Assembly: GCA_016938655.1 (NCBI GenBank)
Contig: JAFGUG010000011.1
Coordinates: forward strand, 124,001 to 188,000
Direction of reading: 5' to 3'
DNA from: Thiotrichales bacterium
GTDB lineage: Bacteria > Pseudomonadota > Gammaproteobacteria > Thiomicrospirales > Thiomicrospiraceae
DNA: 64,000 nucleotides
Part shown: piece after piece, positions 3,150 to 62,249 of the stretch
How the letters are laid out: every line of letters begins with the position of its first letter
Position numbering within the stretch: position 1 is the stretch's first letter
Notes under the pieces: generated by a model
What the model saw: the letters and a program-made list of their open reading frames with translations, nothing else
Told to the model about the DNA's origin: nothing
Database searches by the model: none
Position numbers and translations under genes: made by a program

Positions 3150-3161
3150 AGCAGGCCTGCT
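3150..3161. repeat. AGCAGGCCTGCT palindrome
   Basis: An exact copy of the 12-bp iterated palindrome, in the intergenic region upstream of the amidohydrolase gene. See the findings for the whole family. Confidence 0.95.
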
Positions 3162-3290
3162 GATTTTGAGTTGTTTTGTGTGATGAGCATTATTGGCCAA
3201 TTGTTTTAAGTTTGTTTTACTTTTTTGTGACTTTTGAGTGTGTTTTAATGGTGTTTCATTTTACGTAATAATTTGAGTATGGGAGTGCAA

Positions 3291-4148
3291 ATGCCGTGTT
3301 TCAATCAGTCGTTTAATTGGATTAAGCAGGCCTGCTTAGTTTGCGTTTTAGTTGGGTTTGCCAGTATTGCCAGCGCACAACAGCCTTTGTTTGATAGTCA
3401 TCTGCATTATGGTGGTGAGGACGTTAAGGCGTATTCGCCTAAGCAGGTGATTGAAATCTTTGATCGCAATCAGGTGGAATATGCGTTGGTGTCGAGTACG
3501 CCGAATGATGGAACCGAGGCGCTGTATGAGTATGCGCCAAAGCGGATTATTCCATTTTTGGGGTTGTACCGAACCTTAATCGATAAACGTTATTGGATGT
3601 TTGACAAGTCGGTCATTCCACGTTTAGAAAAAGCCTTAGAGAGTGGAATTTACAGAGGGATTGGTGAACTTCATATTTTTGCCAAAGATCGCAAAAGTCC
3701 GGTGTTAAAACGGGTGGTTGACATTGCCGTGGAGCGCAATTTAATGTTGCAGGTACATGGGGATGCTGCAATTTTAGATGAGATTTTTTCGCAAGCGCCG
3801 AATGTGACAATTTTGTGGGCGCATTTGGGTACTCGACCCGATCCTGACTTTTTGCGAGCGGTCTTAAAACGCCATCCAAATAATTTGTATATTGATACCT
3901 CGGTGCGTGATAAGCAATTGTTACAAACTGGAACCTTAGCACCGGAGTGGAAAGACTTGTTTATTGATTATCAAGACCGTTTTATGATTGCGGTGGACAC
4001 CTTTAGTGTCAACCGTTGGAACACCTTTGATTCGGTGGTGGCCGATATTCACAGATGGTTAAACGATTTACCGCCAGAGGTGTCTAAAAAGCTCGCTTAT
4101 GACAATGCTTATAACCTCCTAATTGGCTCGTCTGAAACCAAGAAGTAG
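3291..4148 (+). CDS. Exported amidohydrolase family (TIM-barrel) protein
   Basis: A predicted metal-dependent hydrolase of about 285 residues with a signal peptide (hydrophobic ACLVCVLVGFASIASA, cleavage before QQP). The mature protein opens with FDSHLHYGG, whose HxH pair is the first metal ligand motif of the amidohydrolase-2/TatD-like superfamily. Later elements are GIGELH, a histidine in MLQVHGD, WAHLGTRPD and MIAVDTF, matching the strand-end ligand order of the barrel. The substrate cannot be told. ATG 3291 is preferred because GGGAG lies 6-10 bases upstream; ATG 3279 and TTG 3273 are in frame. An AGCAGGCCTGCT palindrome (3325-3336) lies inside the signal-peptide coding region. The gene is followed by a 26-bp perfect palindrome and a shared terminator. 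Confidence 0.75.
   Translation: MPCFNQSFNWIKQACLVCVLVGFASIASAQQPLFDSHLHYGGEDVKAYSPKQVIEIFDRNQVEYALVSSTPNDGTEALYEYAPKRIIPFLGLYRTLIDKRYWMFDKSVIPRLEKALESGIYRGIGELHIFAKDRKSPVLKRVVDIAVERNLMLQVHGDAAILDEIFSQAPNVTILWAHLGTRPDPDFLRAVLKRHPNNLYIDTSVRDKQLLQTGTLAPEWKDLFIDYQDRFMIAVDTFSVNRWNTFDSVVADIHRWLNDLPPEVSKKLAYDNAYNLLIGSSETKK
3325..3336. repeat. AGCAGGCCTGCT palindrome inside a signal peptide
   Basis: An exact copy within the amidohydrolase gene, coding Gln-Ala-Cys-Leu in the hydrophobic signal segment. The symmetry extends to 16 bp (3323-3338). Confidence 0.95.
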
Positions 4149-4149
4149 C

Positions 4150-4175
4150 AAAAGTGAGCAGGCCTGCTCACTTTT
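4150..4175. repeat. 26-bp perfect palindrome centred on AGCAGGCCTGCT
   Basis: The 12-bp core at 4157-4168 is extended symmetrically by AAAAGTG on the left and CACTTTT on the right. The same AAAAGTG left arm flanks the copy at 20527, and the CACTTT right arm flanks the copy at 35304. It begins 2 bases after the amidohydrolase stop codon and could form a hairpin in RNA as well as bind a dimeric protein as DNA. Confidence 0.95.
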
Positions 4176-4197
4176 ATTTTGAGTTTTAACATGGCAT

Positions 4198-4226: not shown

Positions 4227-4251
4227 GCTTTTGGACATCGATTAAAGTTGA

Positions 4252-7732: not shown

Positions 7733-7737
7733 AGAAC

Positions 7738-9506: not shown

Positions 9507-9998
9507 GTGGCTACGCATTCAGTTTATATTGGCTTAGGCAGTAATTTAGCCGGTCCTGAGGAACAAGTTCAATTGGCATTTAAAGCCCTTGACGCTTTAC
9601 CTAAGACGGCGGTGATTCAGTGCTCTCAGCTGTATGCCTCTAAACCTCAAGGGCCACAAGATCAACCGGACTTTGTAAATGCGGTCTGTTTGATTGAGAC
9701 TGAGTTAGAGCCTTTAATGTTGCTTGATGCATTGCAAGCGATTGAGCAGTCGCAAGGACGGGTCAAAATTCGTCGTTGGGGTGAACGGAATATTGATTTA
9801 GATATTTTGTTGTTTGATGAGGCGGTCATCTCTTCTGAACGTTTAACGGTTCCGCATCCGCAAATCGCCCATCGTGATTTTGTATTACTGCCTTTGGCGG
9901 AAATTTCAGCAGGCCTGCTGATTCCGAATTTAGGCTGTGTGGATGACCTTATCAGCCAACTTGACACCACTTACGTTAAACCTTGGCAAGCCACGTAA
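9507..9998 (+). CDS. folK: HPPK, 2-amino-4-hydroxy-6-hydroxymethyldihydropteridine pyrophosphokinase
   Basis: Transfers pyrophosphate from ATP to 6-hydroxymethyl-dihydropterin in folate synthesis. The 163-residue protein shows the family pattern YIGLGSNL near residues 7-14, QGPQDQPDFVNAVC, and the magnesium and ATP site RRWGERNIDLDILLFD followed by PHPQIAHRDFVLLPLAEI. It starts at GTG 9507, two bases after the pcnB stop, so it is cotranscribed and probably coupled. An exact AGCAGGCCTGCT palindrome (9908-9919) codes Ser-Ala-Gly-Leu-Leu near the C terminus. Confidence 0.95.
   Translation: MATHSVYIGLGSNLAGPEEQVQLAFKALDALPKTAVIQCSQLYASKPQGPQDQPDFVNAVCLIETELEPLMLLDALQAIEQSQGRVKIRRWGERNIDLDILLFDEAVISSERLTVPHPQIAHRDFVLLPLAEISAGLLIPNLGCVDDLISQLDTTYVKPWQAT
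9908..9919. repeat. AGCAGGCCTGCT palindrome inside folK
   Basis: An exact copy within coding sequence, read as Ala-Gly-Leu-Leu in the context ISAGLLIPN. The symmetry extends to 16 bp with TC and GA. Confidence 0.95.
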
Positions 9999-10097: not shown

Positions 10098-10889
10098 ATG
10101 CGCAAAACGCTCTCTCAATTAAAAAAACAGTATCAGAATAACGATAAGATTGTCTGTTTGACCGCTTACGATGCAAGCAGTGCTCACTGGGTTGCCGAAG
10201 CTGGCGTAGAGGTTATTTTGGTTGGTGATTCATTAGGGATGGTTGTGCAAGGGCATACCACGACGTTGCCTGTATCGCTTGATGATATGGTTTATCACAC
10301 ACAAATGGTGCAACGTGGAAATCAGCAGGCCTGGTGTATTGCAGACTTGCCTTTTATGGCGGATGCGACCCTTGAAAGTGCTTTGAATGCTTCTGCACGC
10401 TTAATGAAAGAGGGCGGGGCGAATATGGTGAAGTTAGAAGGGGGCGAGCGGGTTGTGCCGATTGTGAACGCTTTATCGGCGCTGGGTGTTCCAGTTTGCG
10501 GTCACTTAGGTTTGCTACCACAATCGGTTCAAAAGCAAGGTTATAAAGTAAAAGGCAGAGATGCCTCTTCCGCTGAGCACCTGCTAAATGAAGCCATTAC
10601 CTTGCAAGCCGCGGGTGCGGACATGTTGGTGTTAGAGTGCGTACCGAGTAAGTTGGCAAAACAGATTACAGGGCAGTTGTCGATTCCGGTTATTGGGATT
10701 GGTTCTGGAAAAGACACCTCAGGGCAGGTGTTGGTTTACCATGACCTATTAGGTTTAACGGTGGGTAAAGCACCTGCATTTAGCAAAAATTTTCTAATCG
10801 AAAATGCCTCCATTCAAGCTGCGATTCAAGCGTATGTTAAAGCGGTAAAAGCACAGACCTTTCCTGAAGCTTGTCATGAGGTTGGCTGA
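10098..10889 (+). CDS. panB: 3-methyl-2-oxobutanoate hydroxymethyltransferase
   Basis: First committed enzyme of pantothenate synthesis: it adds a hydroxymethyl group from methylene-tetrahydrofolate to ketoisovalerate. The 263-residue protein carries the family motifs [32 protein letters not shown] and [23 protein letters not shown], and IGIGSG. ATG 10098 is preferred over the in-frame TTG at 10086. It overlaps panC by one base (TGATG), so the two are translationally coupled. It follows folK, which links folate cofactor supply and pantothenate synthesis in one gene group. Confidence 0.96.
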
Positions 10890-13959: not shown

Positions 13960-16752
13960 TTAACCTGTATTTCGCATCCCTGCGGCAATGGCATTAATGC
14001 TGTTTAACAATGGTGTTAACCAGTGATTACGCTCCTCTTCGGTTGAGTCAACCGATTTGTAACGTGCCAGAAGTGCCACTTGAATGTTATTAAGTGGTTC
14101 TAAATACGGCGTTCTGCGGTTTAGTGAAAGCGCGACCGTTGGGGTTTCTGCCATCAAATATTCGTTACCCGATATTTCTAAGATGTGATTAACGGCACGC
14201 TTGTGTTCGTCTGAAATAAGGGTATAGATTTTTTGAGCATCCGCTTGGTTTCTTCCGAGTTTGCTGTATTCAGCACCAATTTGTAAATCAGTCTTGAATA
14301 GTGCCATCTGGATATTGCTTAATAATCCGCGGAAATAAGGCCAGTTTTCGTACATCTCTTTCAGTTGCGAATCGCCGTTTTCTTTGATCCAGTTATCCAA
14401 TGCGTAGCCTGTTCCTTGCCAAGCTGGGAAGGTCATGCGTGCTTGAGCCCAGCCAAAAATCCATGGGATAGCACGAATTGAGGACTTAGATAAATTGCCA
14501 ACCTTACGGTGTGAAGGACGCGAACCAATGTTCAATAAACCAATTTCCGTAACCGGCGTGGATTCATAGAAAAACTCAAAGAAACCGGGTGTTCTATCGG
14601 TTAACTCTCGGAAGTTTTCTTCCCCTTGTTCCGCCAGCTTTTGCATGGTTTCAAGGAACACTGGGTTATCTTTAGGTGTCTTTTCAACTAAACAGGTACT
14701 GGCTTTCATCAGGCCTGTTACACCCAAGGATAGTTCGTACATGGCGGTTTCAGAGTTGCTGTATTTAAACGATAAAACTTCACCTTGTTCTGTGAATTTA
14801 ATAGAGCCTCTAACCGTGCCTGTTGGTTGAGAAAGGATTGCATGGTGAGTAGGGCCGCCGCCACGTCCAACCGTTCCACCACGTCCGTGGAATAGACGAC
14901 AGTCAATACTGTATTTGTCAGCCACTTCCATAATTTCTTGTTGCGCTTGGTATAGGCTCCAAGAAGAGGAAAGGTTTCCACCATCTTTGGCTGAGTCGGA
15001 ATAGCCGAGCATAATCTCTTGTTGATTGCCTGAAGCTTGCAACATATCTCGGTAAGTGACGTTATTAAACAATGCTTCTGTCACAGGAACAATGTGCTTC
15101 AAATCTTCAATCGTTTCAAACAATGGGCTGACTTCGATATCGCAATATGGTTTGCCGGCATTGAAACCAGCCAGGCCTGCTTGGTGCGCCAAGAACATGA
15201 CTTCCATGACGTGACTTGCTTCATGTGTCATTGAGATAACATAATTATTAAAGGCTTTAGGGCTGATCTCTTTACGCATTTCACGAATAACATTGAAGAC
15301 TTCCAGTACTTCTTGGGTCATGTCTTGTAGTTCAATGTGTTGGGTATCAATGATGGTGGCAGAACCAATATGTTTAGCCAGTAATGTAATTTTGTCGGCT
15401 TCTGGTAACGATGCATAATCAATGTTCAGATGCGAAAGTAAATCGATCACCGCATCGGTATGAACGTTCGATTCTTGACGGATGTCCAAACGCATTAAAT
15501 AGAAACCAAAGGTTTGTACAAGGCGAATTAAATCTTTAAGGTCCGCGTTGGCTACGCTCTCATCACCATGTTCACACAATGAGCGGTGAATGAGCTGCAA
15601 GTCTTCAAGTAGTTCATCTTCAGAAGCGTAGGCAAACGAAGACTTAGTAACATTAAGGGTACCGTTTAATTTCTCTTCGATATAGTTGATGTTTTGCTGA
15701 AGTTTGCCGCGGATGATGTATAGAAAACGGCGGTAAGGTTCGTCTTTGAAACGCTCAGGACGCTTTTTAAAGACCGCTTCTTGGAGCTCAGAATCAACAA
15801 TCGTCGCTTTATTCATTAGCTCTTGGTTGATGTTGCTGATGAATTTTGAGTGTGTCAATTTATGGCTTAAGTCGAATACACGGTTTTGGTATTCATACAT
15901 GGCAGAGCGTGACTGCAATAACAGTGCTTTAACGGTGGTATCGTGCTTCACATAAGGGTTTCCGTCACGGTCACCGCCAATCCAAGAACCAAACGTTAAA
16001 AAGTTAGGGATTTGGACATTATCGTTTGGATAAAAACGTGATATTGCACGTTCCATATAGCGGTACACAGTCGGAACTGCAGTAAATAGCGATTGACGGA
16101 AGTAGTAAATACCATTACGAATTTCATCTTCAACCGTTGGTTTGCTACGACGAACTTCGTCTGTTTTCCAGAGCACTTGAATTTGATACTGAAGTTTTTT
16201 AATGACCTCTTCTTGCGCATAAGGATTATTGTAGGCTTCAGCTTCATTAAGCTCGCCTAACGTAATAAAGATTTTACGCAAGTTTTCCATCACAGCACGA
16301 CGTTTTGATTCGGTCGGGTGTGCGGTAAAGACAGGAATATAATTCAGCTTATTTAATAACGTCTGAACTTGATCTGAGGTAAAGCCTTTATTTTTAAACT
16401 CTTCAACGGTTTTTAAAACAGACCCTTCCCACAATGGACCGTCTGATTTTAACTGACTGGTTCGTTCATGGTATTGGTGTTCTTCTTCAGCGAGGTTAAC
16501 TAAGCTGAAGTAGAGGTTGAAGGCGCGAATGATAAGAACCAGTTCGTCTGCAGATTGCTTTTCGATAAACGCTTTAAGTTCGGAGCGTAGGGCGGCATCT
16601 TCTTGATCATGAAGTTTTATGTAACCTTTACGCAGCGTTTCAACTGCGTCAAGAACCGGTTTACCAACTTGGGTTTCAATGATTTCACCTAGTAGGCTCC
16701 CGAGTAATTTTACTCGTGCTCTAAGTTGCTTATCTCGCTTTTCTGCAGCCAT
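13960..16752 (-). CDS. ppc: Phosphoenolpyruvate carboxylase
   Basis: Carboxylates phosphoenolpyruvate with bicarbonate to oxaloacetate, the main anaplerotic route, and especially important in an autotroph that must fill an incomplete citric acid cycle. The 930-residue length fits the family. The catalytic histidine region PVFTAHPTESKRRAV is near residue 140. The glycine-rich loop FHGRGGTVGRGGGPTH is near 625, with GYSDSAKDGG before it, and the C terminus ends MRNTG as is typical. It stands alone with its own terminator. The neighbouring ppa and fbp genes, read in the same direction, also serve central carbon metabolism. Confidence 0.97.
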   Translation of the reverse strand: MAAEKRDKQLRARVKLLGSLLGEIIETQVGKPVLDAVETLRKGYIKLHDQEDAALRSELKAFIEKQSADELVLIIRAFNLYFSLVNLAEEEHQYHERTSQLKSDGPLWEGSVLKTVEEFKNKGFTSDQVQTLLNKLNYIPVFTAHPTESKRRAVMENLRKIFITLGELNEAEAYNNPYAQEEVIKKLQYQIQVLWKTDEVRRSKPTVEDEIRNGIYYFRQSLFTAVPTVYRYMERAISRFYPNDNVQIPNFLTFGSWIGGDRDGNPYVKHDTTVKALLLQSRSAMYEYQNRVFDLSHKLTHSKFISNINQELMNKATIVDSELQEAVFKKRPERFKDEPYRRFLYIIRGKLQQNINYIEEKLNGTLNVTKSSFAYASEDELLEDLQLIHRSLCEHGDESVANADLKDLIRLVQTFGFYLMRLDIRQESNVHTDAVIDLLSHLNIDYASLPEADKITLLAKHIGSATIIDTQHIELQDMTQEVLEVFNVIREMRKEISPKAFNNYVISMTHEASHVMEVMFLAHQAGLAGFNAGKPYCDIEVSPLFETIEDLKHIVPVTEALFNNVTYRDMLQASGNQQEIMLGYSDSAKDGGNLSSSWSLYQAQQEIMEVADKYSIDCRLFHGRGGTVGRGGGPTHHAILSQPTGTVRGSIKFTEQGEVLSFKYSNSETAMYELSLGVTGLMKASTCLVEKTPKDNPVFLETMQKLAEQGEENFRELTDRTPGFFEFFYESTPVTEIGLLNIGSRPSHRKVGNLSKSSIRAIPWIFGWAQARMTFPAWQGTGYALDNWIKENGDSQLKEMYENWPYFRGLLSNIQMALFKTDLQIGAEYSKLGRNQADAQKIYTLISDEHKRAVNHILEISGNEYLMAETPTVALSLNRRTPYLEPLNNIQVALLARYKSVDSTEEERNHWLTPLLNSINAIAAGMRNTG

Positions 16753-20526: not shown

Positions 20527-20538
20527 AGCAGGCCTGCT
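20527..20538. repeat. AGCAGGCCTGCT palindrome upstream of lpd homologue
   Basis: An exact copy, extended to 16 bp (TGAGCA...TGCTCA) and preceded by the same AAAAGTG arm as the copy at 4157. It is intergenic, 84 bases before the dehydrogenase start and between two divergent genes. Confidence 0.95.
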
Positions 20539-25300: not shown

Positions 25301-25360
25301 AAAAAAGCCCCTAATTGAAGTTAAGCAGGCCTGCTCATTTTCAATTAGGGGCTTTTTTTT
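25301..25360. terminator. Bidirectional terminator with AGCAGGCCTGCT palindrome in the loop
   Basis: A 19-bp perfect stem (25301-25319 with 25340-25358; core GCCCCTAATTGAA/TTCAATTAGGGGC) has an A run on one side and a T run on the other, between convergent rlmB and the sugar kinase gene. Its 20-base loop contains the complete 12-bp iterated palindrome (25324-25335). The loop could form a second hairpin on top of the terminator stem. An ordinary terminator loop is 4-8 bases, so the element looks inserted. Confidence 0.93.
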
Positions 25361-27127: not shown

Positions 27128-27877
27128 ATGACGGAAATGAAAACAGCATTTAATGCAAGTTGCTTAAATTGTGGTTTACAAAAAATTTGTTTTCCTACGG
27201 GATTGGACAAAGATGAGATGGATCGATTGGATGCGATTGTGCAAAGAAAAGCGCCGCTCCAAAAAAACCAAGCTCTTTTTTCAGCCGGCGATAAGTTTAG
27301 TTCCTTGTATGCTATTCGAGCGGGCGTAGTAAAAGTATTTTCCTTTTCCGATAGCGGTGAAGAGATCATCCATGGTTTTTATCTGCCAGGTGATGTGGTG
27401 GGAATAGACGCCCTATCTTCTAAAAAACATTTGTTTAATGCAACGGCACTGGATGTGACTAGCATTTGCACCTTACCATTTGAAGAGTTGAGTGAACTGT
27501 CTACAAAAATCCCACACCTCAGTTCACAGGTTTTAAGCATTATGAGTAAAGAGGTGGTTGAGGGGCGTTTGCATTCCGAACTTTTAACAAAAAAGAATGC
27601 AGATCAGCGGATTGCCCAGTTTATTTGGAGTATGGCAGATCGCTATCGAAGTCGAGGTTACCACTATCTAGAGTTTCGTCTGAGCATTCTTCATCGTGAT
27701 GTTGCGACCTATTTAGGGCTCACGCCGGAGACTGTATCGCGTATTTTAGCCAAACTGCATAATGACAAGATAGTTACGTGGAAGAAAAAAGAGGTTTCAA
27801 TTCATAATGAAGCTGCTTTAAGAGGGTTAGCAGGCCTGGCAGAAAGTGATCTTATTTCTTGTTATAAGGTGGTTTAG
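27128..27877 (+). CDS. fnr: FNR/Anr-type oxygen-sensing regulator
   Basis: A CRP-family regulator of about 249 residues that senses oxygen through a [4Fe-4S] cluster. The three N-terminal cysteines are present in CLNCGLQKIC (Cys12, 15 and 21 from this start), and the fourth is Cys114 in TSICTLPFEE. A cyclic-nucleotide-like beta barrel follows, then a dimer helix and a helix-turn-helix whose recognition helix has ETVSR, the pattern that reads TTGAT half-sites. GTG 27116 and ATG 27137 are possible alternative starts. The exact FNR box just upstream implies autoregulation. The protein would switch the cell between oxic and low-oxygen metabolism. Confidence 0.93.
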   Translation: MTEMKTAFNASCLNCGLQKICFPTGLDKDEMDRLDAIVQRKAPLQKNQALFSAGDKFSSLYAIRAGVVKVFSFSDSGEEIIHGFYLPGDVVGIDALSSKKHLFNATALDVTSICTLPFEELSELSTKIPHLSSQVLSIMSKEVVEGRLHSELLTKKNADQRIAQFIWSMADRYRSRGYHYLEFRLSILHRDVATYLGLTPETVSRILAKLHNDKIVTWKKKEVSIHNEAALRGLAGLAESDLISCYKVV

Positions 27878-28635: not shown

Positions 28636-31278
28636 ATGACAAGTAATGCCCCAACAGTAAATTTTTTAAAAGACTATCAAGCACCGCAGTTTGAGATTGA
28701 TTCCGTTTATTTAGAGTTTGACTTGAAACCTTCGGAAACGGTGGTCACCAATACGATGATGATTCGTGCCAAAGAGGGGGCACAGATTCTTGAACTTGCG
28801 GGTGAGCAACTTGAATTGATTTCTATCAAAATTAATGATGAAGACGTTCTGTCAAAATGCCAAATTACCGATGAGAGTTTAACGATTTCAGCAGGCCTGC
28901 CAGAATTCAAGTTGGAAGTTGTCACGCAAGTTTCCCCCCAACAGAATACCTCATTAGAAGGGTTGTATCGCACAAGCGGCAACTATTGCACCCAGTGCGA
29001 AGCTGAGGGCTTTAGAAAGATTACCTACTTTTTGGATCGTCCGGATGTTTTGACGCTATACACCACAAAAATCATTGCAGATAAGCAAGATAACGCCGTG
29101 TTGTTATCAAATGGTAATTTAATTGAGTCAGGTGAGTTAGAGGGCGACCGCCATTATGCGGTTTGGCAAGACCCTTTCAAAAAACCTTGTTATCTATTTG
29201 CTTTGGTGGCAGGTAATCTGGAGTGCATTGAAGATGTCTACACCACGGCAGATAATCGTGATGTGGTGTTACGCATATATGTTGAGGCTCGAAATATTGA
29301 TAAGTGTGAACACGCCATGCAATCACTTAAAAAGTCGATGCAGTGGGATGAAGAGCGTTTTGGGTTAATCTATGATTTAGATATCTACATGATTGTTGCG
29401 GTAGACGATTTTAATATGGGGGCGATGGAGAACAAAGGCCTTAATGTCTTTAACTCAAAGTTTGTATTGGCCAACCCAGACACGGCAACCGATGTCGATT
29501 ATGAAGGTATTGAAGCGGTGATTGGGCATGAGTACTTTCATAACTGGACGGGAAATCGGGTCACGTGTCGAGATTGGTTTCAGCTAACCCTAAAAGAGGG
29601 GTTAACGGTTTTTCGTGATCAAGAGTTCACGGCAGACATGCTCTCCCCGGCGGTAAAACGTATTGAAGATGTGAAAAAGGTTCGGAACAACCAATTTCCA
29701 GAAGATGCGGGACCCATGGCGCATCCGATTCAGCCGCAATCGTACATTGAGATGAACAACTTTTATACCATGACCGTCTATGAAAAGGGGGCTGAAGTTG
29801 TGCGTCTCTATCACACTTTGTTAGGTGAAGAGGGCTTCCAAAAGGGGATGAAACTCTATTTTGAACGCCATGATGGTGATGCAGTCACCGTAGAAGATTT
29901 TAGAAATGCGATGGCTGATGCGAATGACGTAGATTTGTCGCAGATGCATAACTGGTATATTCAGTCTGGAACACCGACGTTAAAGGTGACTGAGTATTAC
30001 GATGCCGATCAGCAGGCCTATACGCTGACCTTTGAACAAAGCCTGCCAAAGCAGGCTGAACCATTTAAACCGCTATTATTACCAGTTAAGTTGGGGTTGT
30101 TATCAGAAACAGGCGCTGCGTTACCTTTGAACATTGAAACAAACGGCGCGCGTGTGGATATTAAAAATCAGCAGGCCTTATTGTGGATGACTGAACAGAA
30201 GCAATCCTTAACCTTTACTCAGCTTGCAGACAAACCGGTTCCGTCCTTGTTACGAGGCTTTTCTGCACCAGTATATTTAGAATTTGATTACTCTGATGAG
30301 GCTTTGAGTCTGTTGACTCAAGCGGATCAAGATTCATTTAATCGTTGGGAAGCGTTTCAAACCTTGGCATTAAACGAGATTAAAAACAATATCCAGCGCT
30401 TTGAGTCTGGTCAAGCGTTGCAGCTTTCGGACGCACTCATGAAGGCTTTTAAGGCCGTGCTTGAGGACGCCAATGCCGATAAAGCGCTGATTGCCTTAAC
30501 CCTTACCTTGCCAAGCTTAACGTATGTGGGAGAGCAATATGATGTGGTGAATGTTGATGCTATCTATGAGGCACATCAGTGGTTACGTGTGCAATTAGCG
30601 ACTCAGAATGAGGCCGGTCTATTGTCGTTATATACTCAGTTAGCATCTGACCATAGCGCTTATCGTTACCATAAAGAGGATATTGCAAAGCGAATGTTAA
30701 AAAATGCCTGCTTGAGTTATCTCTCATTGTTGGAAAAAAATGCGGCCCTAGTGAAGGCTCAATTTGATGCACAGGCCAATATGACTGATGTTTTGGCTGC
30801 TCTTCAGAGTATTGCTAACAGCGAACACCCGCAACGGGTAGACTGTTTGCAAGCGTTTTACGATAAGTGGCAAGCCGATCCTTTGGTATTAGATAAATGG
30901 TTTGCGCTCCAAGCCAGTTCGCATCATGAGCACGCTCTACAGCAAGTTAAAGCATTGGTAGAGCATGCAGACTTTAGCTACGAAAATCCAAATAGAGTAC
31001 GCAGTGTCATTGGTGTATTTGGACGAATGAATTTATTGGGATTCCATCGTGCCGATGGCTCAGGTTATGCTTTTTTAGCTGAGCAGGTTATGAAGGTGGA
31101 TAAACTCAATCCTCAAGTTGCTGCTCGTATTGTTGCACCGTTTACCCATTGGCAGCGTTTTGATGAGGCACGTCAAACAAAAATGAAAGCCGCATTGAAC
31201 ACTGTTTTAGCCATGGACGGGCTTTCTAAAGACGTGTATGAGATTGTCTCTAAGTCACTGGCTGTGCAATCATTTTAA
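28636..31278 (+). CDS. pepN: Aminopeptidase N
   Basis: A cytoplasmic M1-family zinc aminopeptidase of 880 residues, the normal length. The substrate-recognition motif GAMENKGLNVF precedes the zinc site HEYFHNWTGNRVT, with His298, Glu299 and His302; Glu321 in LKEGLTVFRDQEF is the third zinc ligand. The C-terminal alpha-helical domain is complete. The gene contains several near copies of the iterated palindrome (for example 28890-28900 and around 30011 and 30171), mostly where Gln-Gln-Ala or Ala-Gly-Leu is encoded. The LppC-like gene follows after 28 bases. Confidence 0.96.
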   Translation: MTSNAPTVNFLKDYQAPQFEIDSVYLEFDLKPSETVVTNTMMIRAKEGAQILELAGEQLELISIKINDEDVLSKCQITDESLTISAGLPEFKLEVVTQVSPQQNTSLEGLYRTSGNYCTQCEAEGFRKITYFLDRPDVLTLYTTKIIADKQDNAVLLSNGNLIESGELEGDRHYAVWQDPFKKPCYLFALVAGNLECIEDVYTTADNRDVVLRIYVEARNIDKCEHAMQSLKKSMQWDEERFGLIYDLDIYMIVAVDDFNMGAMENKGLNVFNSKFVLANPDTATDVDYEGIEAVIGHEYFHNWTGNRVTCRDWFQLTLKEGLTVFRDQEFTADMLSPAVKRIEDVKKVRNNQFPEDAGPMAHPIQPQSYIEMNNFYTMTVYEKGAEVVRLYHTLLGEEGFQKGMKLYFERHDGDAVTVEDFRNAMADANDVDLSQMHNWYIQSGTPTLKVTEYYDADQQAYTLTFEQSLPKQAEPFKPLLLPVKLGLLSETGAALPLNIETNGARVDIKNQQALLWMTEQKQSLTFTQLADKPVPSLLRGFSAPVYLEFDYSDEALSLLTQADQDSFNRWEAFQTLALNEIKNNIQRFESGQALQLSDALMKAFKAVLEDANADKALIALTLTLPSLTYVGEQYDVVNVDAIYEAHQWLRVQLATQNEAGLLSLYTQLASDHSAYRYHKEDIAKRMLKNACLSYLSLLEKNAALVKAQFDAQANMTDVLAALQSIANSEHPQRVDCLQAFYDKWQADPLVLDKWFALQASSHHEHALQQVKALVEHADFSYENPNRVRSVIGVFGRMNLLGFHRADGSGYAFLAEQVMKVDKLNPQVAARIVAPFTHWQRFDEARQTKMKAALNTVLAMDGLSKDVYEIVSKSLAVQSF

Positions 31279-35303: not shown

Positions 35304-35315
35304 AGCAGGCCTGCT
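35304..35315. repeat. AGCAGGCCTGCT palindrome
   Basis: An exact intergenic copy extended to TGAGCA...TGCTCA (16 bp) and followed by CTTT, the same right arm as the copy at 4157. It lies about 60 bases beyond the last gene of the envelope operon. Confidence 0.95.
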
Positions 35316-40621: not shown

Positions 40622-40658
40622 GTTTTTAAAAGTCAGCAGGCCTGCTTGTTTTTAAAAG
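40622..40658. repeat. Palindrome element flanked by GTTTTTAAAAG direct repeats (upstream of flgB)
   Basis: GTTTTTAAAAG occurs on both sides of an exact AGCAGGCCTGCT (40635-40646). A related element lies upstream of flgI at 47010-47049. The flank is itself nearly symmetric, so it can be read as a direct or an inverted repeat. Confidence 0.85.
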
Positions 40659-44161: not shown

Positions 44162-44478
44162 GCCACCCGGCAATAACTTCCTATATAAGCTTATCGGCTG
44201 CTTTCTGAAACCTTTAGTTCTAAATATCTTTTTTTTGGCATAAACCCTGCTAAATACTTTTCGATAGTAAAAAAAGTGTCAAAACGCTAACACACAAGGA
44301 ATCGAAACTTTTCTATTGGCCACACAAAAATAAACAGGCCTGCTTCATTGAATAGTTTCAACATGGGTTAATGCTTCGCTTTTATTCATTGCTGTTTTTA
44401 AGCATTAATCCTTTTTTACCGAATTTTATAAATCAAAAGTTGAAGCCGAGATTTTAAGGTTTTAACAGGAGTGTTCAC
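44162..44478. other. Intergenic region before flgF
   Basis: A spacer of about 317 bases that holds the sigma-54 promoter at 44236-44251 and a near copy of the iterated palindrome (CAGGCCTG core at 44335-44342, AACAGGCCTGCTT). The latter lies in the transcribed leader of flgF. Confidence 0.7.
44236..44251 (+). promoter_or_regulatory. Sigma-54 promoter of flgFGH
   Basis: TGGCATAAACCCTGCT has the invariant GG and GC separated by 10 bases, as sigma-54 requires. It leads a long leader of roughly 215 bases to flgF. Confidence 0.78.
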
Positions 44479-47009: not shown

Positions 47010-47049
47010 GTTTTTTGAAAAGTCGGCAGGCCTGTTTACTTTTTGAAAG
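47010..47049. repeat. Palindrome element related to the one upstream of flgB
   Basis: GTTTTTTGAAAAGTC, a near-core GGCAGGCCTGTTT (CAGGCCTG at 47027-47034) and CTTTTTGAAAGG follow one another. Order and flanks match the element at 40622-40658, so the two are probably copies of one ~40-bp element. Confidence 0.75.
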
Positions 47050-48339: not shown

Positions 48340-48822
48340 ATGGCCTCTTTAACGATTGCCCCCAATCAAGCAAGCGCAACACAAAACTATAACAACTATA
48401 CCGACGTGAACGCGTTAAACGACCTAAAAAAGCAAGCGCGTGATGATGAGCGTTCTGCTTTACGTCCTGTGGCCGAGCAGTTTGAAGCATTATTTGTTCA
48501 GCAAGTCTTAAAAGAGGCCCGTAAGGTCAGTTTTGATGACGGTTGGTTGGACGGGGACAGCGGTGATTTTTACAAAGATTGGTATGACAAACAGCTCTCT
48601 CAAGACTTGTCCGCTAAAGGAACCTTAGGCTTTGCCGATAAAATAGTAGAGCAACTTGCGCCGAAAGCATTAAACTTAGATTTAAAGTCGGATAAAAACA
48701 GAGCGGGGATGGGTGAAAAAGCGTTAAATCCGCTTGATCTTCCAAACCAAGCAGGCCTGCCAAAACAAACGCAAGTAAGCACCACCGAACAAATCGTGTC
48801 TTTAAGGCAGCTAAAACCTTAA
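48340..48822 (+). CDS. flgJ: Single-domain FlgJ (rod scaffold, no muramidase)
   Basis: A 160-residue protein containing only the N-terminal rod-capping domain (VAEQFEALFVQQVLKEARKV, then SGDFYKDWYDKQLSQDLS). The C-terminal glucosaminidase domain of E. coli FlgJ is absent, so another enzyme must open the cell wall for the rod. A lytic transglycosylase gene lies just downstream of flgL (50135) and is a good candidate. A near copy of the iterated palindrome (AGCAGGCCTGCC at 48750-48761) encodes Ala-Gly-Leu-Pro in the tail. Confidence 0.92.
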   Translation: MASLTIAPNQASATQNYNNYTDVNALNDLKKQARDDERSALRPVAEQFEALFVQQVLKEARKVSFDDGWLDGDSGDFYKDWYDKQLSQDLSAKGTLGFADKIVEQLAPKALNLDLKSDKNRAGMGEKALNPLDLPNQAGLPKQTQVSTTEQIVSLRQLKP

Positions 48823-51479: not shown

Positions 51480-52475
51480 ATGAACTATTGGCAAGGGAAA
51501 CAAGTTTTAGTCACCGGTGCGGACGGGTTTATTGGGTCGCACCTTGTTGAGTCATTGGTCGCGGCGGGCGCAAAAGTACGTGCTTTAGCACTCTACAATT
51601 CGTTTAACGATTGGGGCTGGCTGGATCAAAGTCCCGTTTTAAATGAAGTGGAAGTGGTCAGTGGCGATGTGCGTGATCCGTTTCTTTGCAAAAAAATCAC
51701 CCAAGATTGTCATACCGTGTTTCATTTGGCCGCACTGATTGCCATTCCATACTCGTATGTTGCGCCCAATTCGTATGTGGAAACCAACGTCAACGGCACC
51801 TTAAATATGGCGCAGGCCTGTCTAGAAAATGGCGTCAGTCGTTTTATGCACACGTCCACCTCGGAGGTGTATGGTACAGCGCAATATGTGCCGATTGATG
51901 AGAAGCACCCAACCCAACCCCAGTCGCCATACAGTGCCAGTAAAATTGGTGCCGATGCTATGGCGATGTCTTACTATAACGCGTTTGAAATGCCGGTTTC
52001 CATTGCGCGCCCGTTTAACACTTATGGTCCACGCCAATCGGCACGTGCCGTTATTCCGACCATCATTACGCAAATTGCCAATGGTAAAAAAGAGATTCAA
52101 TTAGGGGATACTTCGCCGACCCGTGACTTTAACTTTGTGACCGATACTTGCCGCGGCATGATGGCAATTGCCCAGTCGGAAAAGACCATTGGGCAAACGG
52201 TGAACATCGGTTCTAATTTTGAGATTTCGGTGCAAGACACGTTGGATTTAATTAAAGAGATTATGGGCAGTGACGTGGTGTTTGTGCAGGATGAACAGCG
52301 CCTTCGGCCTAAAGATTCCGAGGTCTTTCGCTTGTGGTGTGACAACACGTTAATTAACGAGTTAACCGGCTTTGAACCGAAATTTGATATTCGAGCAGGC
52401 CTGTCAGAAACCATTGATTGGTTTACCCAACCTAATAACTTAAAACGCTATAAAGCGGATATTTATAATGTCTAA
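51480..52475 (+). CDS. legB: LegB-type NAD-dependent 4,6-dehydratase
   Basis: A 331-residue SDR sugar dehydratase that starts legionaminic acid synthesis by forming a 4-keto-6-deoxy nucleotide sugar from a GlcNAc nucleotide. The NAD site is VLVTGADGFIGSHL near residue 10; the catalytic residues lie in STSEVYGTA and PYSASKIGADAMA (Tyr and Lys). RPFNTYGPRQSARAVIPTII and GDTSPTRDFNFVTD are shared with related dehydratases. The identification as LegB rests on the complete leg gene set downstream. It overlaps legC by 8 bases. Confidence 0.88.
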   Translation: MNYWQGKQVLVTGADGFIGSHLVESLVAAGAKVRALALYNSFNDWGWLDQSPVLNEVEVVSGDVRDPFLCKKITQDCHTVFHLAALIAIPYSYVAPNSYVETNVNGTLNMAQACLENGVSRFMHTSTSEVYGTAQYVPIDEKHPTQPQSPYSASKIGADAMAMSYYNAFEMPVSIARPFNTYGPRQSARAVIPTIITQIANGKKEIQLGDTSPTRDFNFVTDTCRGMMAIAQSEKTIGQTVNIGSNFEISVQDTLDLIKEIMGSDVVFVQDEQRLRPKDSEVFRLWCDNTLINELTGFEPKFDIRAGLSETIDWFTQPNNLKRYKADIYNV

Positions 52476-55534: not shown

Positions 55535-56532
55535 GTGTCTTTATTATTGCCGAAGCCGGCGTGAATCATAATGGTTCATTAACCATGGCCAAACAACTGG
55601 TGGATGCGGCAAAGGAAGCGGGAGCCGATGCGGTGAAGTTTCAGACCTTTAAAGCGGCAAATTTAGTCACCAAAGAAGCCGAACAGGCTAGCTACCAAAC
55701 GGAAAATACTGGCGTTAAAGAGAGCCAGTTTGATATGCTCAAACGACTTGAACTGGACGAAGCCGCACACTTGGAGTTAGTGGACTACTGCAAACAAAAA
55801 CAGATCGAATTTATGTCGACCGCGTTTGACGATGACAGCATTCAATTACTGCACTCACTGGGCATGCAACGTTGGAAAATCCCATCAGGTGAGCTGCTGT
55901 CGATTCCGTATTTACGAAAAATCGCCGCCTTTAACCAACAAACGATTTTATCGACTGGTATGGGCAACCTAAGCGAAGTGGGGTTGGCGATTCAAACCTT
56001 ATTAGAAGCGGGCTTAGAAAAATCCAATTTAATTGTATTACACGCCAATACCGCTTATCCAACACCGTATGCCGATGTGAACTTACGCGCGATGCAAACC
56101 TTAGCAGGCGAGTTTCAAGTGTCAACAGGCCTGTCCGACCACTCGTTAGGCATCGAAGTGCCCATCGCCGCAGTGGCATTAGGCGCGAGCGTGATTGAGA
56201 AGCATTTTACCCTCGATAAAACCTTACCAGGCCCCGACCACAAAGCCAGTTTAGAACCTCATGAACTTAACGCCATGGTGCAAGCGATTCGTCACATTGA
56301 AGTGGCACTAGGCAGCGGACAGAAAGTGGCGTCTGCCTCAGAGTCGGCAAATAAATCGGTTGCCAGAAAACGCATCGTTGCACTACAACCGATTCAAAAA
56401 GGTCAGGTTTTTACCGAACAAAACCTCACCTTAAAACGCAGTGCTAGTGGCCTGTATGCAGAGCGTTGGGACAGTGCTATAGGCCAAACTGCCTGTCAAG
56501 ATTTTGCAACCGGTGAAGGCATCATTTTATGA
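55531..56532 (+). CDS. legI: Legionaminic acid synthase (NeuB family)
   Basis: A 333-residue sialic-acid-synthase-type enzyme that condenses phosphoenolpyruvate with a 6-carbon amino sugar to give a nine-carbon nonulosonic acid. The TIM barrel begins FIIAEAGVNHNGSLTMAKQL; the active-site pieces KFQTFKAANLVT, KIPSGELLSIP and STGMGNLSEV are present. The C-terminal antifreeze-like SAF domain (RIVALQPIQKGQVFTEQNLT) closes the fold. It overlaps both neighbouring genes (ATGA junctions). The neighbouring dehydratase, aminotransferase and acetyltransferase make legionaminic rather than sialic acid the likely product. Confidence 0.92.
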   Translation: MSVFIIAEAGVNHNGSLTMAKQLVDAAKEAGADAVKFQTFKAANLVTKEAEQASYQTENTGVKESQFDMLKRLELDEAAHLELVDYCKQKQIEFMSTAFDDDSIQLLHSLGMQRWKIPSGELLSIPYLRKIAAFNQQTILSTGMGNLSEVGLAIQTLLEAGLEKSNLIVLHANTAYPTPYADVNLRAMQTLAGEFQVSTGLSDHSLGIEVPIAAVALGASVIEKHFTLDKTLPGPDHKASLEPHELNAMVQAIRHIEVALGSGQKVASASESANKSVARKRIVALQPIQKGQVFTEQNLTLKRSASGLYAERWDSAIGQTACQDFATGEGIIL

Positions 56533-57731
56533 ACGTTTTGAATCGGTTGAATCATAAGTACAACAAACATCGAAAAATTTGTGTCGTTACCGGCACCCGT
56601 GCTGAATACGGTTTACTTACCAATGTGATGAAAGAAATTCAAAACCATCCGGCATTGCAGCTGCAAGTGGTCGCCTGTGCCGCGCACCTCTCTGAAAAGC
56701 ATGGTATGACGGTCAACCAGATTATTACCGATGGGTTTAGTGTGGATGCGCGTATTGAGATGTTAGATGAAAATGCGGACTCTCGATTATCGGTTGCAAA
56801 AGCAGTGGCCAAAGGTGTGAGTGGATTTGCCGATGTCTTTGAGAGGTTACAACCGGACTGTGTTTTAGTGTTAGGCGACCGTTACGAGATATTGGCAGCG
56901 GCTGAAACAGCTTTGCTGCTTAACATTCCACTTGCACACATTCATGGTGGCGAAGTCACCGAAGGCGCGGTTGATGAAGCGATTCGCCATGCCATTACCA
57001 AAATGGCGAGCCTGCATTTTACCGCCGCGGAGGCTTATCAGAACCGGGTGATTCAAATGGGGGAACAGCCCGATTGTGTGTTTAATGTCGGCGCCCCGGG
57101 ATTGGATGTGATTCAAACCATGCCCATGCTTTCACAAACCGAACTTGAACAAACCCTTAATTTAAAACTTAACAGGCCTGTCTGTTTGGTTACCTATCAC
57201 CCTGTAACTTGGTCAAACGGATTGGGTTTAAGTGCATTAAACGCTTTGTTTGCCGCTTTAGATAACCTGCAAGATGCCACGGTTATATGGACAGGCGCCA
57301 ATGCCGATGAACAAGGGCAGCAAATTAACACCGCCGTTCAAGCTTGGATGCAAACCTCTACTTTAAGCACTAAGTTTGTTACCTCACTGGGGTCACAACG
57401 CTATTTAAGTCTGATGGCTTTGGCCGATATCGTAATAGGTAACTCATCGAGTGGCATTATTGAAGCCCCTGCGATGGGGGTGCCTACGGTGAATATTGGC
57501 ACGCGTCAGCAAGGACGATTACGTTCGCCTTCAGTGATTGATTGTGAAGAGAGTCAACGGGCAATAGAAGCGGCATTAAAGCAGGCTTTATCAGCCAAAT
57601 TTAAACAGTTGGCACAACAAAAGCTTAGTGTATATGGTCATGGCCAAACTGCCCAACTCATTGCCGAAAAATTGGCTACGTTTCCGTTTGAATCGCGCAC
57701 GGGTAAAGTTTTTTACGACTTAACTAGATAA
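56529..57731 (+). CDS. legG: LegG/NeuC-type hydrolysing 2-epimerase
   Basis: A 400-residue enzyme that removes the nucleotide and epimerises C2 of the diacetamido sugar, giving the substrate of LegI. It shows the NeuC/WecB-type features VVTGTRAEYGLLTNVM, LVLGDRYEILAAAETALLL, HIHGGEVTEGAVDEAIRHAI and GNSSSGIIEAPAMGVPTVNI. It is the last gene of the overlapping legB-to-legG run. 85 bases separate it from the next gene. Confidence 0.92.
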   Translation: MNVLNRLNHKYNKHRKICVVTGTRAEYGLLTNVMKEIQNHPALQLQVVACAAHLSEKHGMTVNQIITDGFSVDARIEMLDENADSRLSVAKAVAKGVSGFADVFERLQPDCVLVLGDRYEILAAAETALLLNIPLAHIHGGEVTEGAVDEAIRHAITKMASLHFTAAEAYQNRVIQMGEQPDCVFNVGAPGLDVIQTMPMLSQTELEQTLNLKLNRPVCLVTYHPVTWSNGLGLSALNALFAALDNLQDATVIWTGANADEQGQQINTAVQAWMQTSTLSTKFVTSLGSQRYLSLMALADIVIGNSSSGIIEAPAMGVPTVNIGTRQQGRLRSPSVIDCEESQRAIEAALKQALSAKFKQLAQQKLSVYGHGQTAQLIAEKLATFPFESRTGKVFYDLTR

Positions 57732-59677: not shown

Positions 59678-59719
59678 GGATCTTAAATTAAGCTTCTCTT
59701 AGGAAAACGATTAAAACTT

Positions 59720-59731
59720 AGCAGGCCTGCT
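59720..59731. repeat. AGCAGGCCTGCT palindrome upstream of maf
   Basis: An exact intergenic copy in TTAGCAGGCCTGCTTAA context, 62 bases before the maf start codon. Confidence 0.95.
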
Positions 59732-59792
59732 TAATTTGAGATTGCCCAAACACTGCCTGCTCTAATTAACCTGCAAAAGGATTACCCAACCC

Positions 59793-62249
59793 ATGAACTT
59801 TGATTTTGATCCCGGTGACGCTATTACGAATGCTTACGGTGAACGTTTTTTTCCCAGCATTAACGGCAACCTGTTTGAAAAAAGTTCAGCTGCAACCGTA
59901 TTTGGTCGTTACTTTAAAGAGACCTTCAATAGAAAAGATACCCTATACATTATTGGGGGGAGTGATTCAGGTTTACTGCCTTTTTACCTAGCAGATTTCT
60001 ACAAAACGGGACGTGGTGGGCGCAAGTTTATCTTTCTAGACTTTAAGGCGGTGTTTAAAGAGATTGATATTTCCGGTCTGCCGAGTTGGATTGAGTGTTA
60101 TCCCGCTGACTTCTCAATGGGATTGCTGAGCCAGACCGAAGTGGAATATATGGCCTCAGGCAGAATGGCATTGATTAAGTCACTCGCGATGATTGATGCC
60201 AAATACCAAGACGTGTACGGTCAGTTTTTAGCTTACCTTGAAGGGGAATATCGCAAGCTGATGTTTGCTGAAAACGTCACCAGTGTCACGCGCTCCTTTG
60301 TCGATGCACAACTGATGAACATTCACCGTAATATCAAACCCATTAAATTACTGCGTGGCAAACTCAAGCAACGCGATGTGCTAATGATTGGCGGTGGCCC
60401 CTCTCTGGATGACTCGATTGATTGGATTAAGGCCAATGCTGATAAATTCATTATTTTTGCTGCCGCGCGAACCGCGCCAAGAATGTTGAAAGAGGGGATT
60501 AAACCGGATTTTTTAGTGTCGGTAGACCCACACGATTTGAGCTTTGATAACTCCAAGCGCATGTTGGAATTTGAGCAAGATACCATCTTGATGAACTGTC
60601 ATCACATTAATCCGAAACTGTTAAACCAGTGGGCGCTCAACAGTGTCTATTTTGGTGGCTCATTACCGTGGGGCGAATCCGAAGAGAACTCCAGTTCACC
60701 GGGCCCAACGGTCATTCATAGTGCCTTGCACCAAGCGGTGTTTATGGGGGCGTCTAACGTCTATTTAACGGGCGTTGATTTGTGTTTTTACAACGGACAA
60801 ACGCACGCCTCGGGCAGTGCCGAGAGTGAGATTGGTAAGTTGGGGGTGAAACATTTAACCCAAGTAGAAACCTATGCTGGTGAGATGGCTGAAACCGACC
60901 AAGCGTTCTCCAGTGGGGTTGACTCTTTGGCTTGGCTTGTAAAAGGTTATAAAACGCACTCACCCGACTGTTCAATCTACAATTTGAGCCAAAATGCCGC
61001 TCGCGTTGATGGTGTTGAGTTTAAAGATAAATCCACGGTACCCGTGGATGGATTATCCAGTAAGCATGGGTTAATGGATGAGATGAATGACATTTTAACG
61101 GTTGACCTAAAAACCATGCAAAGTCATCAAAAAAAGCATCTAACGCTTTTTCAGAAAAAACGTCTGTTATTAAAAGAGGCAATTAAGCTTGCAGAACAAG
61201 GGTTAAAACTAACTGCAAAATACTCTGAAACCACGCCCGACTCAAACAAACTGGTTAAAGTAAAAATTAAGCTCGATAAAAAACTTGGCGAGTTGGGGGA
61301 GATGCTTTATCACTATGGCATTGATTATTTTCGTGATGTGTTTCGCCCAGTGGAAGACGAAACACAGATGACGCAAGATGAGATTAGCTCAACCTTAGAA
61401 GGTTACTTTAAAGGTATGAAGGCGAGTTGCACCGATTTTATCGCCCGTTTAGACAAATCGATGATTGTGCTTAAAAACCGCATTGAAGAGTACCGTGAAA
61501 CCAGCAGGCCTGCTGATTTATTGCCCGCGTGGATGAATCAATTTGAAATTGGTCGTTACCGTATTTGGATGCATTATCATCCCAATGTTGAATTGACCAC
61601 AGAAGATCAAGCGGCGTTAGATCAAGCGGCTCAAATTTTACAAAAAAACATTTTGCACACCAATACCAAACAGGCGCAACTATTAAAAGACCGCAGCTTA
61701 TCGCCGGTGGAGTTGCATGGTAAAGCGATGGGGGCTTTCACTAAGCAAGACCTAGATGCGTTAAAAGATATTCAAACTCAGCTTAAAAAAGTACCGGGTT
61801 ATGAAGGTCAGCAACTTGCCTGTTTGGTGAAGGGTATGATTGCCGATTTGCAGGAAGAATCAGAAGTCGCGATTGAGGCCTATGCCGCCATTAGCTTTAA
61901 ACCGTTTAAACTGCTAGCCTTAAAACGCCAGTTGCATTATGCCATGTTGGCTGATCAGCAAGATCAGGTGCTGATTCACTTTGAACATCTCTGTGAGTTT
62001 TCAATTGAATATATGTTGCCGTATGCCGATTATTTAACGTTATTGGGGCAAAACGAATTTGCCTTTGCGGTGATGCACGCCTTTATTCAAAAATCGCCCG
62101 AACATTTTTCAGGGTTATTAAAGTTGGCCGAGTTGGCTTTAAAGGTCGGTAAGGCGGCCGAGGCATTAGATGCACTTAAACAAGCAGAAGCATTGCAACC
62201 CAATAACCCGCAAGTTAAACAGATGATTCAGCTTTTGACGTCCAATTAA
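59793..62249 (+). CDS. Motility accessory factor (Maf, DUF115/MptE-like) flagellin glycosyltransferase
   Basis: An 818-residue protein. Its central domain (residues about 190-420) has the DUF115/MptE-like features DVLMIGGGPSLDDSIDW, FIIFAAARTAPRMLKEGIKP and DFLVSVDPHD, with an ASNVYLTGVDLCF strand. This is the domain shared by Maf proteins, which transfer nonulosonic acids to flagellin in the cytoplasm. The C-terminal ~250 residues are helical and TPR-like (FSGLLKLAELALKVGKAAEA, then LDALKQAEALQPNNPQV). It sits between the CMP-sugar genes and the flagellins, as expected. An exact AGCAGGCCTGCT (61503-61514) encodes SRPAD within it. Confidence 0.87.
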   Translation: MNFDFDPGDAITNAYGERFFPSINGNLFEKSSAATVFGRYFKETFNRKDTLYIIGGSDSGLLPFYLADFYKTGRGGRKFIFLDFKAVFKEIDISGLPSWIECYPADFSMGLLSQTEVEYMASGRMALIKSLAMIDAKYQDVYGQFLAYLEGEYRKLMFAENVTSVTRSFVDAQLMNIHRNIKPIKLLRGKLKQRDVLMIGGGPSLDDSIDWIKANADKFIIFAAARTAPRMLKEGIKPDFLVSVDPHDLSFDNSKRMLEFEQDTILMNCHHINPKLLNQWALNSVYFGGSLPWGESEENSSSPGPTVIHSALHQAVFMGASNVYLTGVDLCFYNGQTHASGSAESEIGKLGVKHLTQVETYAGEMAETDQAFSSGVDSLAWLVKGYKTHSPDCSIYNLSQNAARVDGVEFKDKSTVPVDGLSSKHGLMDEMNDILTVDLKTMQSHQKKHLTLFQKKRLLLKEAIKLAEQGLKLTAKYSETTPDSNKLVKVKIKLDKKLGELGEMLYHYGIDYFRDVFRPVEDETQMTQDEISSTLEGYFKGMKASCTDFIARLDKSMIVLKNRIEEYRETSRPADLLPAWMNQFEIGRYRIWMHYHPNVELTTEDQAALDQAAQILQKNILHTNTKQAQLLKDRSLSPVELHGKAMGAFTKQDLDALKDIQTQLKKVPGYEGQQLACLVKGMIADLQEESEVAIEAYAAISFKPFKLLALKRQLHYAMLADQQDQVLIHFEHLCEFSIEYMLPYADYLTLLGQNEFAFAVMHAFIQKSPEHFSGLLKLAELALKVGKAAEALDALKQAEALQPNNPQVKQMIQLLTSN
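61503..61514. repeat. AGCAGGCCTGCT palindrome inside maf
   Basis: An exact copy read as Ser-Arg-Pro-Ala-Asp, the same reading phase as the copy at 50471. Confidence 0.95.

Follow-up and report, generated by a model that had tools for sequence, protein, structure and literature searches.

A genome-wide palindrome with species dialects in Thiomicrospiraceae, a candidate DNA uptake sequence

DNA uptake signals that are specific to self have been thoroughly documented in two families of bacteria, and how such signals arise and change is a question on which the family treated here bears. Uptake sequences lie in transcription terminators of both Neisseriaceae and Pasteurellaceae, according to a study whose main text contains neither 'Thiomicro' nor 'Hydrogenovibrio' (PMC13020248). 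Overlapping dyad pairs of the DNA uptake sequence (DUS) are described from Simonsiella muelleri, for which dimer-based recognition has been suggested (PMC3630211), and the minor pilin ComN has been proposed as the receptor in Pasteurellaceae (PMC12616744). For the highly iterated palindromes (HIP), a predicted methyltransferase is reported in every genome (PMC4390886). Here we analyse a 12-bp palindrome, AGCAGGCCTGCT, with the 8-mer core CAGGCCTG, which recurs in a stretch of 64,000 nucleotides (hereafter the window) from a Thiotrichales bacterium of the family Thiomicrospiraceae (GCA_016938655.1, contig JAFGUG010000011.1, positions 124,001 to 188,000). The phosphoenolpyruvate (PEP) carboxylase of the window has its nearest named genomes among Thiomicrorhabdus species (protein identity 83-84%), and on sequence evidence the source organism is Thiomicrorhabdus-like. 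We propose, with a probability of roughly 0.55, that the palindrome is the source species' dialect of a DNA uptake (self-recognition) sequence, in a lineage in which this signal is dyad-symmetric.

Abundance and anatomy of the palindrome

The signal is real, genome-wide and common to much of the family, and neither composition, nor the methyltransferases surveyed, nor termination alone explains it. All 12 exact copies that the first-pass annotation of the window had listed were recovered, compared with 0.003 expected under a second-order Markov model and no match in 100 dinucleotide-preserving shuffles, and its claim of an abundance far above chance holds. The core occurs 25 times in the window (0.68 expected). 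In the source genome (2,933,684 bases in 108 contigs, with an estimated contamination of 7.72%) the exact 12-mer occurs 411 times and its reversed-letter control never, and RNCAGGCCTG is found 1064 times, one strand counted. The window, at 12 copies per 64 kb, lies near the genome average of about 9 per 64 kb and is therefore not an outlier. Copy numbers of hundreds to thousands, far above expectation, are a feature of DNA uptake sequences, and as a highly iterated palindrome AGCAGGCCTGCT likewise resembles the HIP elements, which the asymmetric form of T. cannonii, described below, does not. A plasmid search with 361 bases around two copies of the palindrome gave no match.

Composition and mismatches were counted in 448 kb from two contigs of the source genome, the window included, with genes defined by a longest-ORF (open reading frame) rule at a minimum of 100 aa. 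Copies with 0, 1, 2 and 3 mismatches number 84, 69, 60 and 137, against Markov means of 0, 1, 13.4 and 126.8, and 65 of the 69 single-mismatch copies differ at positions 1, 2, 11 or 12, which bears out the variation at the edges that had been noticed earlier. A long core of 12 bp, as first described, is correct with respect to iteration but not with respect to the constant part: most species that bear the signal share ANCNGGCCNGNT, often together with A/T tracts, and the genome G023 departs even there.

A/T tracts flank the core on both sides, 10-12 bp from the dyad, in most well-sampled species. In the source genome, A reaches 81, 89 and 80% at three consecutive tract positions of intergenic copies, and 49, 54 and 48% at those positions in coding copies. 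The tract lies at an identical distance in G023 and in a pool of zzn3 and ZW0627, is weaker in G030 and faint in G018, and no A/T tracts were found around the motif of G035. In T. cannonii the tract is kept on the left half only, the right half being CCGGGT. This form is directional, and 8 of its 42 distinct sites (44 rows listed, minus two overlap repeats) are joined in 4 inverted pairs, which have T runs and whose loops measure 10-12 bases; in the logo of G020, two sites enter twice owing to the overlap of L005 and L169.

The two halves of the palindrome vary almost independently within genes of the source genome and of G035. Coding copies with two, one or no good half number 23, 57 and 34 in the source genome (23.3, 56.5 and 34.3 if the halves were independent), 89, 65 and 13 in G035 (88.4, 66.2 and 12.4) and 34, 41 and 20 in G030 (31.3, 46.5 and 17.3). 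The intergenic copies of the source genome show a looser fit to independence, with 61, 24 and 8 against 57.3, 31.4 and 4.3.

Dialects, distribution and conservation in place

Word counts in relatives give ANCNGGCCNGNT as the skeleton common to most of the dialects. The spelling is ACCAGGCCTGGT in Milos-T2, Hydrogenovibrio sp. SC-1, G030 and others, AACAGGCCTGTT in UBA650 and, in mixtures, in zzn3 and ZW0627, RRCAGGCCTGYY in T. chilensis, ASCAGGCCTGST in G035, TACCGGCCGGTA in G023 and, as the asymmetric form, AACAGGCCGGGT in T. cannonii, several of these assignments being based on 20-60 kb. The family possesses at least five spellings of the signal, arranged as species dialects around a shared inner core in the manner of DNA uptake sequences. 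In T. chilensis, 12 of 28 copies of AGCAGGCCTGCT lie within G025:C1:1234225-1526887, that is, in 0.3 Mb of 2.44 Mb; this cluster might mark DNA from a donor with another dialect.

Among the 37 family genomes sampled, some of which are incomplete assemblies, ANCNGGCCNGNT is found 140-877 times per genome in 20 and 5-62 times in 16. G023 has only 44 copies, yet its own 10-mer occurs 85 times in 220 kb, and we therefore distinguish 21 bearing and 16 lacking genomes. Other iterated words were looked for in ten of the 16 lacking genomes, over 7-40 kb each, with a repeat array masking weaker words in G019. Short words are repeated 37-39 times in L078-L079 (G018) and about 97 times in L060-L061 (G019), in arrays of CRISPR-type appearance. 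Across 274 genomes from the class, ANCAGGCCTGNT exceeds 22 copies only in the source genome (697) and in G035 (522); the 271 genomes that belong to other families never do so, and the third family member in this set, G026, has 3 copies. Bearing and lacking species are interleaved in several clades of a one-protein tree (30 rows), a pattern which, on inspection of that tree, is compatible with an old signal that was lost several times.

Orthologous DNA aligned from five relatives retains the core at 8 of 18 sites of the window, compared with 312 of 4517 control 8-mers of equal GC (Fisher 1e-5). The near copy at 10324 keeps its core in five of the six relatives compared and the one at 14708 in none of six; the near copy at 15170 is identical in L024, and its core is lost in the other five. 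At 9908-9919, where the window reads AGCAGGCCTGCT, L004 has the core in the same place, L024 / Milos-T2 has ACCAGGCCTGGT, and T. cannonii has, at 9910, ACCAGGCCGGGT, which matches its own right half. The convergent interval at 25324, compared by coordinates between aligned genes, holds copies in each relative's own dialect: GACAGGCCTGTC in L003, GGCAGGCCTGCC in L004, two copies in L032 and AACAGGCCGGG in L005, with one flank only aligned in L032 and L005 because those loci end there. The interval at 20527 reads GTCAGGCCTGAA in L032. In these comparisons some sites hold their position from species to species in the local dialect, and conservation is partial.

Gene context and the copies in the window

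As the first-pass annotation had noticed, copies lie both between and inside genes: 61 of the 84 exact copies fall outside ORFs, within 13% of the sequence (binomial 9e-36), and 23 inside them, while 114 of the 207 core copies are in ORFs and spread along gene length. Intergenic core copies per kb amount to 3.66 in convergent, 1.4-1.5 in tandem and 0.74 in divergent intervals of the source genome, and to 1.73, 1.0-1.4 and 0.21, respectively, in G030. This tail-to-tail enrichment and the inverted pairs of T. cannonii, which are usable as terminators, are both features of uptake sequences.

Along the chromosome, cores per 20 kb have a mean of 9.6 and a variance of 9.4 in 19 stretches of the source genome, which is Poisson-like, and a mean of 7.55 and a variance of 18.2 in 20 evenly spaced samples of G030, which is more uneven than Poisson. 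An even spacing was considered and rejected; the intervals are roughly exponential instead, with some excess of close pairs on one contig. No uneven spread along the replication axis was seen, the G030 samples being without trend, by eye, at the GC-skew switches. The sole empty sample of G030 (L141, G030:C1:1224001-1244000) is a defence island with genes for Wadjet JetA/JetD, a BsuBI/PstI-type restriction protein with a methylase domain, GmrSD and a ResIII helicase. The poorest stretch of the source genome (L042, G000:C3:160001-180000), with one core in 20 kb, carries carboxysome and RuBisCO genes and no evident island. A Chi-like function, as Chi is generally understood, was set aside on account of the symmetry and the mostly intergenic location of the site.

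Several of the exact copies in the window are intergenic. Those at 3150..3161, 40635..40646 (within a long imperfect palindrome) and 59720..59731 lie between tandem genes, the one at 20527..20538 between divergent genes, and three between convergent genes: 4157..4168, 25324..25335, at the tip of a long hairpin, and 35304..35315. The first of these three sits within a 26-bp perfect palindrome, AAAAGTG-core-CACTTTT (4150-4175), with identical letters on both strands and a terminator-like appearance both ways. The copy at 3325..3336 is near the start of the ORF at 3273-4148, whose TTG start is uncertain, and may therefore be upstream of the gene. The others are within genes, namely an HPPK (folK-like) gene (9908..9919), a lytic transglycosylase gene (PF01464; 50471..50482), a DegT/DnrJ aminotransferase gene (PF01041; 53403..53414) and an MptE-like/TPR gene (PF01973; 61503..61514).

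Near copies are AGCAGGCCTGGT at 10324..10335, in the ketopantoate hydroxymethyltransferase gene, and again at 32175..32186; ATCAGGCCTGTT at 14708..14719 and GCCAGGCCTGCT at 15170..15181, both in the PEP carboxylase gene; AGCAGGCCTGGC at 27829..27840; AGCAGGCCTGCC at 28890..28901 and 48750..48761; AACAGGCCTGCT at 44333..44344; GGCAGGCCTGTT at 47025..47036; CGCAGGCCTGTC at 51811..51822; AGCAGGCCTGTC at 52394..52405; and AACAGGCCTGTC at 56124..56135 and 57171..57182. The 12 near copies named in the first reading all exist, 11 of them starting 0-3 bases from the position given, but the one placed at 56134 really starts at 56124. Elsewhere in the window, one 35-base terminator-like hairpin occurs twice, at 419-453 and 2984-3018, with an identical tail, pointing to the duplication of a segment at the left end, and a 243-aa ORF at 1598-2329 has a PEP-CTERM motif at its end.

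The uptake proposal, its rivals and known systems

If the palindrome serves DNA uptake, a pilus-associated surface receptor would bind the central GGCC and its near neighbours during natural transformation, reading one or both half-sites with the aid of the A/T tracts 10-12 bp from the centre. The pilus would then retract, and ComEA and ComEC would carry the DNA inward. Fragments that bear the signal would be preferentially taken up and recombined, so that copies would multiply and be kept in the species' spelling where they are tolerated, which would be above all downstream of genes and between convergent genes, some copies being reused as transcription terminators. A drift in receptor specificity would be followed by the dialect of the whole genome. 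Uptake as the function and a minor pilin as the receptor are inferred; the observations in favour of the model comprise the copy number, the dialects, fixed-distance tracts that are found in coding copies as well, the directional form, the intergenic excess, the partial conservation in place, the empty defence island of G030, the MSHA (mannose-sensitive haemagglutinin), PilT/PilU-like and Com genes, and the pattern in G035. It is an evenly balanced question whether sulfur-oxidising gammaproteobacteria would here have one more lineage of uptake sequences, evolved independently of the others, mostly symmetric and directional in T. cannonii, with a receptor on an MSHA-type pilus system without ComP and canonical PilM.

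In the source genome, an MSHA-type pilus operon encodes a PilB/MshE-like ATPase, a PilC-like protein and a secretin that scores over the MshL cut-off; present too are two PilT/PilU-like pairs (a label based on match length and adjacency), ComEA and ComEC. At E <= 0.001, ComEC is found in 19 of the 21 bearing genomes and 14 of the 16 lacking ones. ComEA, which in several bearing genomes stays below its own cut-off, is found in 20 and 12, respectively, and a PilT/PilU-like pair in 11 of the 12 bearing genomes checked (in G015 the match contains a stop) and in 6 of 8 lacking ones. The machinery therefore permits uptake and does not explain who bears the motif, and competence genes were rejected as the cause of its presence or absence. 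The exception among the 12 is G035, a one-contig genome with two T2SSE-family matches, one of them with an internal stop (a type II/IV secretion ATPase match at G035:C1:1324266-1325285, with TAG inside). Its intergenic bias is weak (0.74 vs 0.46 per kb), and its central one-base variants number 52, with 25.5 expected, compared with 10 (21.4 expected) in the source genome and 10 (19.3 expected) in G030. This possibly resembles decay after a loss of upkeep, in one genome of another genus, picked post hoc.

Several observations weigh against uptake. The core density of G035 is still high (195 in 400 kb) despite the missing PilT/PilU-like pair, and ComEC, ComEA and PilT/PilU-like genes are present in most motif-free relatives too. 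The ComP_DUS family (PF16732) has no match over cut-off in any of the 37 family genomes, with one sub-cut-off match in G019, which disfavours a neisserial-type receptor; nor has PilM (TIGR01175), whose sub-cut-off matches occur in all 37 and are nearly full length only in G012 and G036. A canonical type IVa pilus was likewise rejected on this ground, an MSHA-type operon being present in the source genome. A prepilin pattern search of the 448 kb gave no convincing pilin, and no DNA receptor was found by this pattern or among the families searched (ComP_DUS, PilM). Among the papers found, and judged by titles and the openings of abstracts, none reports natural transformation for Thiomicrospira, Hydrogenovibrio or Thiomicrorhabdus. 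As to conservation in related species, which had been proposed as a check, 8 of 18 cores are kept and the 25324 interval carries the signal in four relatives, but five of the eight kept cores represent one site in one gene, the pantoate gene, where they may reflect protein constraint; the 20527 interval is without a core in L003, L004, L005 and L024, and T. cannonii, which is outside the five-relative count, keeps 0 of 4 cores letter for letter. A palindrome is also a fitting site for an ordinary DNA-binding protein that acts as a dimer. Since no receptor was found and competence genes occur with and without the motif, our confidence in uptake is moderate.

The principal rival would explain the copies as individually selected sites for a dimeric chromosomal protein (nucleoid-associated, or acting in segregation or nucleoid occlusion) which reads the dyad and the A/T tracts. 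The dyad symmetry, tracts about one helical turn from the centre, the sparseness of sites in coding and divergent (promoter) regions, and a family-wide occurrence with the drift in specificity expected of a protein and its sites are all in accordance with it. However, the directional form of T. cannonii with its one strong half is hard to square with an obligate dimer, the halves are near-independent in coding copies of the source genome and of G035, and each change of dialect would require the re-spelling of hundreds of copies in a genome. The Poisson-like spread in the source genome and the lack of any excess or deficit at the GC-skew switches of G030 (by eye) are also unlike systems linked to ori or ter, and we consider such a protein an unlikely explanation. 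Alternatively, a favoured hairpin could have spread by ending transcripts, as in terminators or REP-like (repetitive extragenic palindromic) 3' elements, and the intergenic majority of exact copies, the richness of convergent regions, the hairpins with T tails (4150-4175 and at 25324) and the terminator-like inverted pairs of T. cannonii agree with this. On the other hand, ORFs contain 23 of the 84 exact copies and 114 of the 207 core copies, when even the whole 448 kb would be expected to have only 5.0 cores; these coding copies keep their flanks, although weaker. Mean flank scores (of 3) for A on the left and T on the right are 2.61 and 2.78 at forward genes and 2.00 and 2.48 at reverse genes, strong whatever the gene direction and opposite to what terminators need; a T tail downstream of the transcript is not the rule, even though single sites such as 4150-4175 qualify. 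That the flanks do not follow transcription is therefore evidence against a plain terminator. Only 43% and 41% of intergenic copies are paired at distances 7 and 9 from the dyad, and on both grounds the palindrome is probably not maintained for its hairpin. We regard termination as a quite improbable origin.

The first-pass annotation had likened the palindrome to cyanobacterial HIP1, which would imply methylation-directed repair with a cognate methyltransferase on GGCC or AGGCCT. The likeness holds for a highly iterated GC-rich palindrome whose deviations affect the outer positions, as reported for HIP1, and the replacement of dialects resembles the alternate HIPs, in which other palindromes take the place of HIP1 in some relatives (PMC4390886). 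It does not extend to the methyltransferase families surveyed. The C5 methyltransferase family PF00145 has over-cut-off matches in 7 of the 21 bearing genomes and 8 of the 16 lacking ones and is thus no commoner with the motif, and 11 of the 21 bearing genomes have no over-cut-off match to either PF00145 or PF01555, the two families surveyed (G015 and G036 have one sub-cut-off match each). A cognate methyltransferase in every bearing genome, as for the HIPs, was not found in these two families, which do not track the motif among the 37 genomes and are therefore evidence against a HIP1-type account. Nor do the dialects listed have an adenine position common to all. Further differences from HIP1 are the strong intergenic bias, the A/T flanks and the sparser occurrence (207 cores in 448 kb, about 460 per Mb), and a role of this type is the least probable of those weighed here.

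The family is one of free-living chemolithoautotrophs with at least five spellings, a presence and absence that are interleaved on a one-protein tree, orthologous sites of which some are re-spelled, and symmetric forms alongside a directional one. If uptake is the correct explanation, a comparison of the 21 bearing with the 16 lacking genomes offers a way to look for the receptor, and if the uptake lineage is independent, a switch between palindromic and directional forms and the repeated loss of a signal would be traceable within one family. If uptake is not the explanation, a dyad signal that is genome-wide, has dialects and is bound by no known protein would itself be unexplained.

The REP/BIME (bacterial interspersed mosaic element) sequences of enterobacteria are palindromic, lie at the 3' ends of genes and reach hundreds of copies; they differ from our palindrome, of which 114 of 207 core copies are in ORFs and whose conserved core is far shorter. 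Searches of the published literature under the exact dialect strings found no report of the motif; no publication was found for 'Thiomicrospira' with 'DNA uptake sequence', and nothing relevant stood among the entries listed under wider terms. The likeness to neisserial uptake sequences proved stronger than first seen, as dialects, fixed-distance tracts, a convergent preference and a directional form with inverted pairs have been added to it. Uptake of the palindrome is a proposal made here, and the palindrome differs from the DUS of Neisseriaceae in its unrelated sequence, its symmetry in most bearing species and the lack of over-cut-off matches to the ComP family and canonical PilM. With the DUS it shares about a thousand or more copies, a constant inner core with dialects, the tail-to-tail and terminator association and inverted pairs (PMC1852404, PMC3630211). 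The uptake signal sequence (USS) of Pasteurellaceae has a core and A/T tracts at a fixed distance, even without a hairpin, and inverted pairs which serve as terminators (PMC1852404, PMC7811141). The tracts of the USS, which is directional, lie downstream of its core, in contrast to tracts on both sides here, except in T. cannonii. An A-rich extension also belongs to the features that the DUS/USS have in common with the palindrome. The nearest precedent for the palindromic form is provided by the dyad DUS pairs of Simonsiella muelleri (PMC3630211).

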